Assembly (NCBI RefSeq): GCF_013170845.1
Contig: NZ_CP033367.1
Location: 1,860,001-1,924,000 of the forward strand
DNA length: 64,000 nucleotides
Source: Mesorhizobium loti R88b
GTDB lineage: Bacteria > Pseudomonadota > Alphaproteobacteria > Rhizobiales > Rhizobiaceae
Direction: 5' to 3'
Shown: piece after piece, positions 7,061-19,664 of the stretch
How positions within the stretch are numbered: the stretch's first letter is position 1
How the letters are laid out: the number at the start of each line of letters is the position of its first letter
Made by a program: the position numbers and the translations under genes
Notes under the pieces: model-generated
What the model was told of the DNA's origin: nothing
Seen by the model: only the letters and a program-made list of their open reading frames with translations
The model's database searches: none

Positions 7061-7741
7061 CTAAACCGCGACCGCCGGCTGGCTCCAGCGGGCAGCGACC
7101 AGCCGGTAGGGGATGAGCGCGACCACGGCGATGATCAGCTTTACCGAGAGATCGCCAAGCGCCCACGAGACCCAGCGCATCGCGTCCACATGGAAGACGC
7201 CCATCAGTGGCGCCGTTTCAAGCGCAAAACTGTCGTTCGGGCCCGCAAAAGCGAAAGCGGCCGAGAAGGCGACGGTGAAGAACACGACGGTGTCGAACAC
7301 CGATCCGACCAGCGTGCCGATGATCGGCGCCCGCCACCAGCTCTGCCGGCGCAAACGGTTGAACACGGTGACGTCGAGCAACTGCGCGGTCAGGAAGGCG
7401 GCACCGGAAGCGGCCGCGATGCGCACCAGCCGGTCGGCCGCGGTCTCGAATTCGATCAGGCCGTGGCGAAACAGGAAGGGCGGGACAAGGATCGAGCAGA
7501 CCACCGCCGTCATGAAGCCGACAAAGACGATCCGGCGCGCCACGGCAGGCCCGTAGCGGCGGTTGGCGAGGTCGGTGACCAGGAAGGAGAAGGGATAGGT
7601 GAAAGCGCCCCAGGTGAGCAGGTCGGCCAGCGACAGGCCGCCGATCTGGCCCTGCATCGGGAACTGCACGAGGATGTTCGATGCCACGACGACAAGCGCC
7701 ATGGCAGCCACGAAGGGCAAATATCGCGAGAAGGAAGACAT
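7061..7741 (-). CDS. yhhQ: Queuosine precursor transporter (YhhQ/VUT family)
   Basis: This 226-residue inner-membrane protein has about six hydrophobic segments and family landmarks such as LADLLTWGAFTYPFSFLVTD and GTLVGSVFDT. YhhQ-family proteins import queuosine precursors (preQ0/preQ1) used to modify tRNA wobble bases. The ATG at 7741-7739 is preceded at seven bases by AGGA, and the leader holds a preQ1-I-like riboswitch that includes this ATG, which independently supports the substrate assignment. It is followed by the spermidine-synthase-like gene. Confidence 0.9.
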   Translation of the reverse strand: MSSFSRYLPFVAAMALVVVASNILVQFPMQGQIGGLSLADLLTWGAFTYPFSFLVTDLANRRYGPAVARRIVFVGFMTAVVCSILVPPFLFRHGLIEFETAADRLVRIAAASGAAFLTAQLLDVTVFNRLRRQSWWRAPIIGTLVGSVFDTVVFFTVAFSAAFAFAGPNDSFALETAPLMGVFHVDAMRWVSWALGDLSVKLIIAVVALIPYRLVAARWSQPAVAV

Positions 7742-7770
7742 TTTTTTATCCTGGGTAATGGAACCAGCGG
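7739..7770 (-). promoter_or_regulatory. PreQ1-I-like riboswitch overlapping the yhhQ start codon
   Basis: Read on the minus strand, CTGG (7767-7764) pairs with CCAG (7754-7751) to make P1. The loop begins TTC, whose C (7761) sits where the ligand-pairing cytosine of preQ1-I aptamers lies. An A-rich tail (7748-7742) follows P1. The next three loop bases, CAU (7760-7758), are complementary to the AUG start codon (7741-7739), giving the short pseudoknot helix P2. The AGGA ribosome-binding sequence (7752-7749) overlaps the 3' end of P1 and runs into the tail. Ligand binding should therefore hide both the ribosome-binding site and the start codon. The match to the Bacillus and Thermoanaerobacter class I aptamers is from memory of their published sequences. 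Confidence 0.8.
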
Positions 7771-7851
7771 AGCATCATGCCCATCGAGGCGATGCTCGCT
7801 TCGTCTTCGAGCATGGATGTCGAACCTTGCGGCTTCCATCCGATACCAGAG

Positions 7852-7911
7852 GGCCAACAAGAGGTTGGCCAGGGGCCAACAAGAGATTGGCCGGGGCGGT
7901 CGTCCCCCGCC
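7852..7911 (-). terminator. Cluster of three hairpins after rpmB
   Basis: Two 19-base hairpins (7852-7870 and 7874-7892) are near-identical tandem copies: each is GGCCAA and TTGGCC around a 7-base loop, differing at one position. A third G+C-rich hairpin, GGCGGGGG/CCGCCCC, follows at about 7893-7911, closest to rpmB. They lie just downstream of the rpmB stop and upstream of the yhhQ leader. There is no clear T-run, so they may act as an RNA 3'-end stabiliser or weak terminator. Confidence 0.4.
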
Positions 7912-7921
7912 TTGTCAGGTA

Positions 7922-8218
7922 TTAGGCAGCGACCTGCTCGGCAAGCTTCTTGGCGATCTGCTTCTTCAGCAGACGCGCGCGCTGCGACAGTTCCTTGATG
8001 TCGGCCTTGGCCAGGAAAGCGTCGAGGCCGCCGCGATGTTCGACCGAACGCAGCGCGTTGGCCGAGATGCGCAGGCGCACATTCTGGTTCAGCGCTTCCG
8101 AAATCAGCGTCACATTGACGAGGTTCGGCAGGAAGCGGCGCTTGGTCTTGTTGTTGGCGTGGCTCACATTGTTGCCGGTCATAACTGCCTTGGCAGTGAG
8201 TTCGCAGGTGCGGGACAT
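7922..8218 (-). CDS. rpmB: 50S ribosomal protein L28
   Basis: This 98-residue basic protein matches bacterial L28 with the alphaproteobacterial length. Recognisable parts are [25 protein letters not shown] and the C-terminal helix with [12 protein letters not shown]. It has only one cysteine near the N-terminus, so it is the form without the zinc-binding CxxC pairs. The ATG at 8218 is the conserved start; the open frame runs further upstream to 8329 but that part looks non-coding. It stands alone on the minus strand, divergent from the DUF3108 gene. Confidence 0.96.
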
Positions 8219-8399
8219 GGTTCTAACCTTCAGTTCTTTCGAGACCTGCCAAACCTTTGTGCCCACGCCGGGTGGCGCGCGGTTCTGGTGAGGCGGCCTT
8301 ATGGAAAAGTTGGCGTTCCATAGTTGCATTTCGCCGGGGCGTCAAGCTCCAGCTTGCCCACGGAAGCGCCCGGGATTTCATATTAAGGCCGGATTTCAT

Positions 8400-8419
8400 C
8401 CTATAAGCGGTCTTATAGG
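8400..8419. promoter_or_regulatory. Perfect palindrome upstream of the DUF3108 gene
   Basis: CCTATAAG (8400-8407) and CTTATAGG (8412-8419) form a perfect inverted repeat with 4-base spacing, 57 bases before the DUF3108 ATG and in the gap between it and rpmB. A repeated GGATTTCAT occurs just before it (about 8373 and 8391). The shape suits a dimeric regulator site. No regulator is assigned. Confidence 0.35.
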
Positions 8420-17585: not shown

Positions 17586-18200
17586 CTATCGCTTCAGCAA
17601 GAACACCGCCTGCTGGCCGAAGAAATTCCAGAACCACCAAGGCATCGACAGGCCGATCTTCTGGCCGGCGGCGTCGAGCGCGGTTGCCTTTTCCACCGTG
17701 GCCCCCAGCTCCTCGCACAGATTGACGAAATCGCGAATGGTGCAGAAGTGGATGTTGGGCGTGTCGTACCAGGAGTAGGGCAGATCCGCGGTCACCGGCA
17801 TCCGGCCTTTGACGAACAGCGACAGGCGCACCCGCCAATGGCCGAAATTGGGGAAGGACACGATCGCCCGGTTGCCGATCCGGAGCAGTTCGTCGAGCAC
17901 CAGCTTCGGGTTGCGGGTGGCCTGCAAGGTCTGCGACAGGACGACGAAGTCGAAACCCTTGTCGGGATAGAATTCGAGATCCTTGTCGGCATCGCCCTGG
18001 ATGACCGAGAGGCCGCGCGCCACGCATTCGTTGACGCCACGCTGCGAGAGCTCCAGCCCGCGGCCGTCGACCTGCTTGGTGTCCTGCAGCAATTCAAGCA
18101 ACGAGCCGTCGCCGGAACCGACGTCGAGCACGCGGGACTGCGGCGGGATGAGATTGGCGACGACCTCGAGGTCGACGCGCTGGTTTCCATTGACGCTCAT
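17586..18200 (-). CDS. metW: Methionine biosynthesis protein MetW
   Basis: This 204-residue SAM-binding protein has the motif [15 protein letters not shown] near residue 25-40 and the MetW landmarks [20 protein letters not shown] and [14 protein letters not shown]. MetW works with MetX in homoserine acylation during methionine synthesis in proteobacteria. Its ATG overlaps the metX stop codon (ATGA), so it is translationally coupled to metX and controlled by the upstream SAM-II riboswitch. Confidence 0.93.
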
Positions 18201-19366
18201 GATGTCAGCCCTCTGGCGCGAGCCGCCGAGCCGATGAAGCCGTTGATGGCGGCGAACAGTTCCGGCTCGTCGAGCAGGAAGGCGTCATGGCCACGATCGG
18301 TCTCGATCTCGACGAAGGATACCGATGCGCCGGCGGCATTGAGTGCGTGCACGATCGAGCGGCTCTCTTCGGTCGGAAACAGCCAGTCCGAAGTGAAGGA
18401 CACAAGGCAGAAACGGGTCCTGGTGCCGGCAAAGGCGTCCGCCAGCCTGCCGCCATGGTCGGCGGCGAGGTCGAAATAATCCATCGACCGCGTCATGTAG
18501 AGGTAGGAATTGGCGTCGAAGCGATCGACGAAGGTCATTCCCTGGTGGCGCAGATAGCTTTCGATCTGGAAGTCGGCGTCGAAGCCGAAGGTCAGGTGGT
18601 CGCGATCCTGCAGGTTGCGGCCGAATTTGCGGTGCAAGGCGGCTTCCGAGAGATAGGTGATGTGGGCCGCCATGCGCGCTACCGCCAGGCCTTTTTCCGG
18701 GCGCTTGCCGTGCTCGAAATATTTGCCGCCGTGCCAGTCCGGATCGGCCATGACGGCTTGCCGGCCGACTTCGTGGAAGGCGATGTTCTGCGAGGAATGG
18801 CGCGCGCCGGTGGCGATCGGCAGCGCCGAGAACACGCGCTCGGGATAGCTCGACGCCCATTCCAGCACCTGCATGCCGCCCATCGAGCCGCCGAGGACGC
18901 AGAACAGCTGTTCGATGCCGAAATGGTCGATCAGCATCTGCTGGGCACGCACCATGTCGCGGATGGTGATGATGGGCAGGTCGAGCCCATAGGGCTTGCC
19001 GGTGGCGGGGTTGGTCGAGGCCGGGCCGGTGGAGCCCAGGCAGCCGCCGATGACGTTCGAGCAAATGACAAAGAAACGGTTGGTGTCGATGATCTTGCCG
19101 GGACCGATCAGCACTTCCCACCAGCCCGGCTTGCCGGTCACCGGGTTGGTGTTGGCGACATGCTGGTCGCCGGTCAGCGCGTGGCAGACGAGGATGGCAT
19201 TGGAGCGGGCATCGTTCAGCGTGCCATAGGTCTGGTAGGCGATCTGGAATGGCGACAGCAGCGTGCCGGCGTCAAGCTTGAGCGGCTTGTCGGGCCCGAA
19301 ACGCAACACCGGGCTCGACGGTTGGTCGGCCTCGTTGTTGGTCTTTCCAGCGCGCAGAGCGGCCAT
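18197..19366 (-). CDS. metX: Homoserine O-acetyltransferase
   Basis: This 389-residue alpha/beta-hydrolase-fold enzyme acylates L-homoserine, the committed step of methionine synthesis. The nucleophile is Ser161 in GGSMGG, and the late GHDAFLLD segment holds the catalytic His. In many MetX-MetW systems the acyl group is acetyl or succinyl; the sequence alone does not decide. The leader carries a SAM-II riboswitch and an intrinsic terminator, so the gene should be off when SAM is plentiful. metW follows with an overlapping start. Confidence 0.95.
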
Positions 19367-19406: not shown

Positions 19407-19439
19407 CAAAAAACCGGCATTGCCGTCGCAAAGCCGGTT
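19407..19439 (-). terminator. Intrinsic terminator in the metX leader
   Basis: On the minus strand AACCGGC (19439-19433) pairs with GCCGGTT (19418-19412). The helix continues past one T-T mismatch as TTGC/GCAA around a GACG loop. A T-run, TTTTTTG counted from the end of the stem, follows. The hairpin is between the SAM-II aptamer and the metX start, so it can work as an attenuator. Confidence 0.75.
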
Positions 19440-19453
19440 ACAGGATGCAAACG

Positions 19454-19508
19454 GCCCTTTAGCAAGTTGTTTAACGTGGCTGCAAGCCGACCGGCCAAAT
19501 CACCACGG
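19454..19508 (-). promoter_or_regulatory. SAM-II riboswitch upstream of metX-metW
   Basis: The minus strand shows the SAM-II (metA motif) pattern: P1 arm CGTGG (19507-19503), then TGATTTGG, the CTTGCAG block, the second P1 arm CCACG (19479-19475), the A/T-rich TTAAAC and the 3' GCTAAAGGG. This class binds S-adenosylmethionine and is typical of alphaproteobacterial metA/metX/metZ leaders. A hexamer in its first loop, GCCGGT (19495-19490), is identical to part of the terminator 3' arm and complementary to the 5' arm. Confidence 0.9.
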
Positions 19509-19664
19509 AACTGTCGCTGACCTTCTAGAACTCGCCCGCCTTGCCGTCAATGCCGACTGCTGGCCGGCTATAGGCACAACTGCCGCCTCTCGACATTGCG
19601 GGCCATGGCTTGTATTTCCGCTGCGGCCTCCGGCTGGAGGCATTTTCGACGGATTTTGCAAAAA

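Follow-up and report, generated by a model that had tools for sequence, protein, structure and literature searches.

What is the short hairpin that ends on the start codon of a queuosine precursor transporter gene in Mesorhizobium loti R88b, and could it be a riboswitch? An original prediction, made from a stretch of 64,000 nucleotides (hereafter the window), had placed a preQ1-I-like riboswitch at 7739-7770, with the start codon of yhhQ as pseudoknot partner. The parts on which this reading was built, a P1 stem CUGG/CCAG, an A-rich tail and a CAU complementary to AUG, are all present on the minus strand, where 7767-7739 reads CTGG-TTC-CAT-TA-C-CCAG-GATAAAAAA-ATG, the ATG being the first codon of yhhQ. 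The element occupies 29 nt at 7739-7767, minus strand (CUGGUUCCAUUACCCAGGAUAAAAAAAUG); positions 7768-7770, included in the prediction, lie outside the conserved core. The loop does start with UUC as described, but by alignment with the E. coli riboswitch the preQ1-pairing cytidine is C 7755, which directly precedes the P1 3' strand, and not the C of UUC. The features are distributed as follows:

7061..7741, minus strand: yhhQ, queuosine precursor transporter, 226 aa (TIGR00697, PF02592)
7739..7741, minus strand: P2 3' strand, which is the yhhQ AUG start codon; in the yhhQ frame in 79/81 parsed leaders
7742..7750, minus strand: L3, A-rich tail GAUAAAAAA; its last A is aligned to E. coli A27, a preQ1 contact
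7749..7752, minus strand: Shine-Dalgarno-like AGGA, with AG within P1 and GA within the tail; AGG-to-AUG spacing 8 nt
7751..7754, minus strand: P1 3' strand CCAG, held constant by the leader selection rules
7755, minus strand: specificity cytidine, predicted partner of preQ1; C in 70/70 leaders although free in the selection rule, and aligned to the E. coli specificity C
7756..7757, minus strand: L2, UA; its A is aligned to E. coli A13 (proposed gatekeeper) and is A in 62/70 leaders
7758..7760, minus strand: P2 5' strand CAU, complement of the start codon; CAU in 81/81 parsed family leaders
7761..7763, minus strand: L1, UUC, aligned to U6, U7 and C8 of the E. coli riboswitch
7764..7767, minus strand: P1 5' strand CUGG, in 65/70 loci found by YhhQ homology alone; P1 pair changes between lineages are compensated
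7922..8218, minus strand: rpmB (ribosomal protein L28), the neighbouring gene upstream, outside the switch (TIGR00009 83.4 bits, PF00830 87.5 bits)

The gene that follows the element is, as had been proposed, a member of the queuosine precursor transporter family: it scores 110 bits with TIGR00697 (cut-off 50.95) and 99.4 bits with PF02592 (cut-off 27.2), and stays below the threshold of the equivalog NF008406 (122.2 vs cut-off 252). The gap between rpmB and yhhQ is 180 nt. A generic preQ1-I-like scan was applied to both strands of the window, asking for a 4-bp P1 closed by G-C and followed by a U, a P2 strand of 3 nt left free, a C before the P1 3' strand and AAAA before the P2 partner. It returned a single match, the 29-nt element, where 100 Markov-simulated sequences of 128 kb gave 4 matches in total (about 0.04 per window). 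The 29-nt hairpin is as stable as its shuffled versions (-3.4 kcal/mol, z 0.01), and the fold of 96 nt favours an upstream stem that uses the first two bases of P1. This stem, situated just 5' of P1 (window 7768-7810, minus strand; e.g. GAGCGTC...GACGCTC in several Mesorhizobium species), could be an alternative state.

The distribution of the element was analysed on 150 YhhQ loci, 30 from the family search, 40 from further stretches and 80 from named contigs, of which almost all belong to Mesorhizobium; the window itself is part of this set, and L002 and L038 are one stretch. The leader comparison called for at the outset places the element, with sharp borders, at the yhhQ start in 145 of the 150 loci, the exceptions being L124, L129, L146, L147 and L149. 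The proportion is 65/70 among the loci fetched purely by YhhQ homology. At the scale of genomes, a pattern tolerating any NTG start, which fixes P1 so that P1 variants would escape it, matches 260 of 297 family genomes, against 4/297 for the reversed pattern. In genomes G000-G150 it is found in 129 of the 143 with YhhQ and in none of the 8 without. In five more (G002, G046, G059, G083 and G139) L2 has one extra base, which brings the count to 134/143 YhhQ genomes, and nine of the 143 have no intact copy (G004, G005, G006, G056, G082, G091, G093, G111 and G124). Decayed-looking copies are seen at yhhQ in G111 (locus L266; CTGGTTCCATTACCAAGATTAAGAATG) and perhaps G006 (locus L149), which are small genomes of genus g7; these copies give the impression that reduced genomes are losing the control. 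Among the matches listed for the NTG-tolerant pattern in the 297 genomes there is no version with GTG or TTG; all of them end in ATG except G065:C250, apparently a chance match.

Outside the family, the generic scan has no match in 48 YhhQ leaders drawn from the other families of the order (L168 is incomplete). By eye, several of the yhhQ genes in these families (L152-L199) closely follow an rpmB-like end, without leader element. A class-wide model search of 289 genomes, a set which may contain no other Rhizobiaceae, matched the genome of origin only; as the filters were strict and scoring was limited to 25 candidates in each genome, this is a weak negative.

Conservation along the leader was quantified for the 29-nt form. 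Of 86 leaders tried, 81 matched and 77 remained once thinned, and the measurements are those of the 70 thinned leaders of 29-nt form (the ten pattern-picked leaders L251-L260 are among the 86, and the four without intact element, L263-L266, are left out). Information per position is 1.83 bits in the block, compared to 0.08 upstream and 0.63 in the next codons, and conservation falls off at the G of AUG. Part of this signal exists by construction: the rule for 29-nt leaders, like that behind the count of 145/150 loci, fixes C[TC]GGT, CAT, CCAG and ATG, hence the invariance at CTGG, at the next T and at CAT, CCAG and ATG. The cytidine before the P1 3' strand, the T of the tail and the six A that follow it are free of any rule and are nevertheless identical in 70/70. 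Variation is found at two L1 positions, in L2 and at the first two positions of the tail, i.e. at the turn from P1 to L3. In L1 the first U is fixed by the rule, position 2 is U in 46/81 and G in 35/81 leaders, and position 3 is C in 54/81 and G in 27/81. P1 is nearly invariant within the family, with one C-A mismatch (L078), which exceeds what pairing alone requires.

The natural term of comparison is the leader of yhhQ in E. coli, a preQ1-I type III riboswitch that has been crystallised (PMC10622847). In K-12 it reads UUGGG-UUC-CCU-CA-C-CCCAA...AAAAAGG. In the cocrystal P2 is formed by the pairs U11-A28, C10-G29 and C9-G30, and preQ1 is read by the L2 cytidine, an L1 uridine and A27 (PMC10622847). 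The commonest Rhizobiaceae loop, UUC-CAU-CA-C (TTCCATCAC), differs from that of E. coli, UUC-CCU-CA-C (TTCCCTCAC), at C10 alone, whereas the loop of the window (TTCCATTAC) departs from it at C10 and also at C12. The partner of C10, G29, has become U, which turns the middle P2 pair from C-G to A-U and the Shine-Dalgarno AGG into the start codon AUG. The window retains the bases aligned to U6, U7, C8, U11, A13, C14, A27 and A28.

Does the element belong to type III? An H-type pseudoknot of P1 and P2 with an A-rich L3 is indicated by the sequence and by compensation across lineages. UU after the P1 5' strand and AC before its 3' strand are found in the window (in the family, UU gives way to UG at the frequencies given above for L1 position 2, and A precedes the specificity C in 62/70), and yhhQ lies downstream. 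The likeness to the gamma-proteobacterial yhhQ leaders covers the gene, the UUC-P2-CA-C layout, the closing G-C, the A-run before P2 and the U-A ceiling pair. The differences concern the partner of P2, which is the start codon AUG here and the Shine-Dalgarno AGG in E. coli; P1, which unlike that of type III has 4 bp and carries the Shine-Dalgarno at its 3' end; and the approach to the A-run, a fixed short stretch here and a variable linker in type III. Since the AAGG Shine-Dalgarno tail in P2 is missing and is replaced by AAUG with the start codon, we file the element as a variant that would work alike and not as a member of type III. The type III subgroup is described as "almost exclusively" gamma-proteobacterial in one passage of its structural study and as proteobacterial in another (PMC10622847), and a review of preQ1 riboswitches assigns it to Pseudomonadota (PMC11625349). 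As sources differ on this range, alpha-proteobacterial forms may already sit in the 2014 alignment that defined type III. Type II, represented in T. tengcongensis and B. subtilis, also shares the H-type pseudoknot, the specificity C with its preceding A, and the A-rich L3; it differs by its P2 and by its platform, a partial Shine-Dalgarno occlusion or a terminator (PMC11625349). The preQ1-II and preQ1-III classes are larger, HLout pseudoknots with further pairing regions (PMC11625349), while here a 29-nt conserved block is bordered by unconserved flanks and no Rfam preQ1 model matches in the window.

The Rfam model for preQ1-I, RF00522, had been put forward as a first check of the prediction. 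No match was obtained at its gathering score (39 bits) by window, stretch or genome. This negative carries no weight, because the known E. coli yhhQ riboswitch (L151:4120-4260) is missed equally, with no match at E <= 10; at E <= 5 nothing is found in 20 loci (five gamma-proteobacterial, eight of family f74 and seven Rhizobiaceae), so that the model does not discriminate. Rfam 15 may miss type III elements in general. A snoRNA model gave the sole match of the stretch search, at 12.9 bits for a cut-off of 40, and was discarded.

A switch built on this scaffold might sense a 7-deazapurine other than preQ1, for instance preQ0 or queuine, which we consider unlikely. Tgt and QueF are both present in this genome, in keeping with the preQ1 reading. 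Tgt is found in 37/37 genomes and does not discriminate carriers, while QueF is above cut-off in 25/44, and carriers of the element are found both with and without it. A QueF match is absent in the carriers G001, G028, G046, G109 and G139, of which G001, G028 and G109 may not make preQ1; this would favour another ligand, as would the leaders with GG or GC in L1, which alter positions in contact with the pocket of the E. coli riboswitch. Against this, 70/70 leaders have both the specificity C and the A-run, with the closing G-C fixed by the rule, the window keeps all the mapped pocket bases, and the E. coli type III riboswitch has a strong preference for preQ1 (PMC10622847). The ligand that we favour for the element is thus preQ1.

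Covariation was considered between lineages, with the P2 loop strand left free. The parse, which still fixes P1, the A-run and TG and which asked gamma-proteobacterial elements for at least 4 P1 pairs, gives CAU in 81/81 parsed family leaders (86 tried) and CCU in 19/19 parsed gamma-proteobacterial leaders (30 tried). Among the 11 of 30 that failed, eight (L202, L203, L206, L208, L209, L210, L228 and L229) carry, by eye, GGTTCCCT and an A-run with GG; none was seen by eye in the gamma leaders L213, L214 and L223. A family of the same class, f74, has a distinct preQ1-I-like element (L231-L242), mostly of the form CAAG-TCN-CCG-...-C-CTTG-...AAAA-CGG. It sits about 7-14 nt before the yhhQ start, its P2 being CCG with CGG, and it looks nearer to type II from its sequence; 12/12 fit a rule in which CCG and CGG are written, and 9/12 the free-P2 scan, which requires pairing.

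On 25 chosen unique elements (8 Rhizobiaceae, 10 gamma, 7 f74), 96.0% of the cells are paired compared to 71.1% in shuffles and at most 66.0% when the partner strand is slid, in an alignment that misplaces the third P2 base of f74 and counts it as unpaired where the direct parse gives G-C. The covariation score is 0.600 vs 0.168 in shuffles, and 39 cells are changed on both sides vs 10.7; sliding the partner strand reduces pairing, two-sided cell changes and score alike. Two of the five measures are no better than shuffles, namely two-sided pair changes (4, for 3.8) and further pair types (6, for 7.9). The covariation reflects a small number of independent events: each lineage has a single change at one P2 pair, and a few more lie in P1. 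As P1 pairing was in part a selection rule, the P1 part of it is partly selected; the difference of the P2 loop strand between alpha and gamma is not. The expected covariation of the CAU/AUG pair is accordingly present between lineages and absent inside the family, where the pair is invariant in all leaders seen and the partner is always AUG.

The near invariance of P1 within the family, beyond pairing needs and with no covariation there, would also suit a site bound by a small RNA or by a protein that represses translation, or else an RNA thermometer, whose likeness to preQ1-I would be a coincidence or a relic. We find this improbable: the commonest loop is identical at every base to that of the E. 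coli aptamer of known structure, save for one compensated P2 pair, the variation is confined to L1, L2 and the P1-L3 turn, and the gene imports the ligand of a known riboswitch class. That the block is a DNA element, an operator or part of a promoter overlapping the start codon by chance, is hardly credible despite a mild conservation at positions -10 to -1 before the block (mean 0.27 bits), given the drop of conservation at the G of AUG, the strand-specific hairpin with its A-tail, the compensated changes between lineages, and a search for sigma-70-like promoters, the one type covered, that found none at 7600-8400. It is likely that the 29-nt element is an aptamer of the preQ1-I class close to type III, in which the expression platform has been relocated and through which preQ1 would repress yhhQ. 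The core of the original prediction, a preQ1-I-like aptamer with P2 on the start codon, is in this way supported by conservation in the family and by the compensated C-G to A-U change in P2 relative to E. coli. We infer the ligand, the fold, the direction of control and the translational mechanism from the E. coli homologue, for which preQ1 represses a reporter (PMC11625349).

By this analogy, the switch would operate as follows. At low preQ1 the P2 strands would be apart, which would leave AGGA and AUG accessible, and the importer would be synthesised. When preQ1 is bound at C 7755, P2 (CAU/AUG) would form above P1 (CUGG/CCAG), along which the A-rich tail would lie. The ribosome would then lose together the start codon, taken up in P2, and half of the Shine-Dalgarno, taken up in P1, and yhhQ would be repressed. 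Because the closed pseudoknot would cover both signals, preQ1 should lower the synthesis of its own importer.

AGG is found 6-13 nt upstream of AUG in 78/81 parsed leaders, and in the window it straddles the end of P1. The AUG of P2 is the in-frame yhhQ start in 79/81 leaders (78 by motif and L125 by eye); the next Met is disfavoured as a start because the residues before it are shared (LPFVAAM in many). Three leaders, L114, L122 and L126, have no AGG, yet both aptamer and AUG are preserved in them. In two of these, L114 and L126, the AUG of P2 lies outside the yhhQ frame and the start is apparently the second ATG, with CAT/ATG retained: this is a hint from the sequence that P2 matters for itself, unless the starts are misread. 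Overall, the AUG is probably a structural part of the aptamer, its A forming the ceiling pair over preQ1, its U and G closing P2, with the Shine-Dalgarno at the end of P1. One RNA of 29 nt would then be at once sensor, ribosome binding site and start codon, kept across most of the family and one compensated pair away from the form that buries the Shine-Dalgarno.

Related arrangements are known. In the direct-occlusion pseudoknots of the SAM-II-like riboswitches, a ribosome entry signal is likewise inside the aptamer pseudoknot, but the buried signal is the Shine-Dalgarno (PMC10907184, PMC9373788), whereas here the P2 strand is the initiation codon. In the add adenine riboswitch the start codon is likewise occluded, the ribosome binding site and the AUG being held in a sequester hairpin; that AUG belongs to a separate hairpin of the expression platform (PMC10907184), while in the present element the ligand-binding pseudoknot would itself include the AUG as a strand. 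No report of a start codon serving as P2 strand, or of such a form in Rhizobiaceae, was found in the literature searched, which lay mostly outside subscription papers. In the available text of the preQ1 review the terms "start codon" and "AUG" are absent, and the single mention of "initiation codon" concerns ribosomal protein S1 (PMC11625349). The same review presents riboswitches in mRNAs without Shine-Dalgarno as an open search (PMC11625349), on which L114, L122 and L126 bear, with their aptamer and AUG and no AGG. If the proposed reading is true, the ligand directly controls the pairing of the start codon inside the aptamer, instead of that of the Shine-Dalgarno, and a feedback on the import of queuosine precursors is predicted in nitrogen-fixing symbionts and many of their relatives, where it would be invisible to a scan with Rfam. 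The AGG/CCU and AUG/CAU forms constitute a natural pair for comparing the occlusion of the two signals.

The window contains another riboswitch, of the SAM-II class (SAM_alpha, RF00521, 78 bits), at 19439-19516 on the minus strand. It lies upstream of the open reading frame 18197-19366, which we take to be a gene of the homoserine O-acetyltransferase type.
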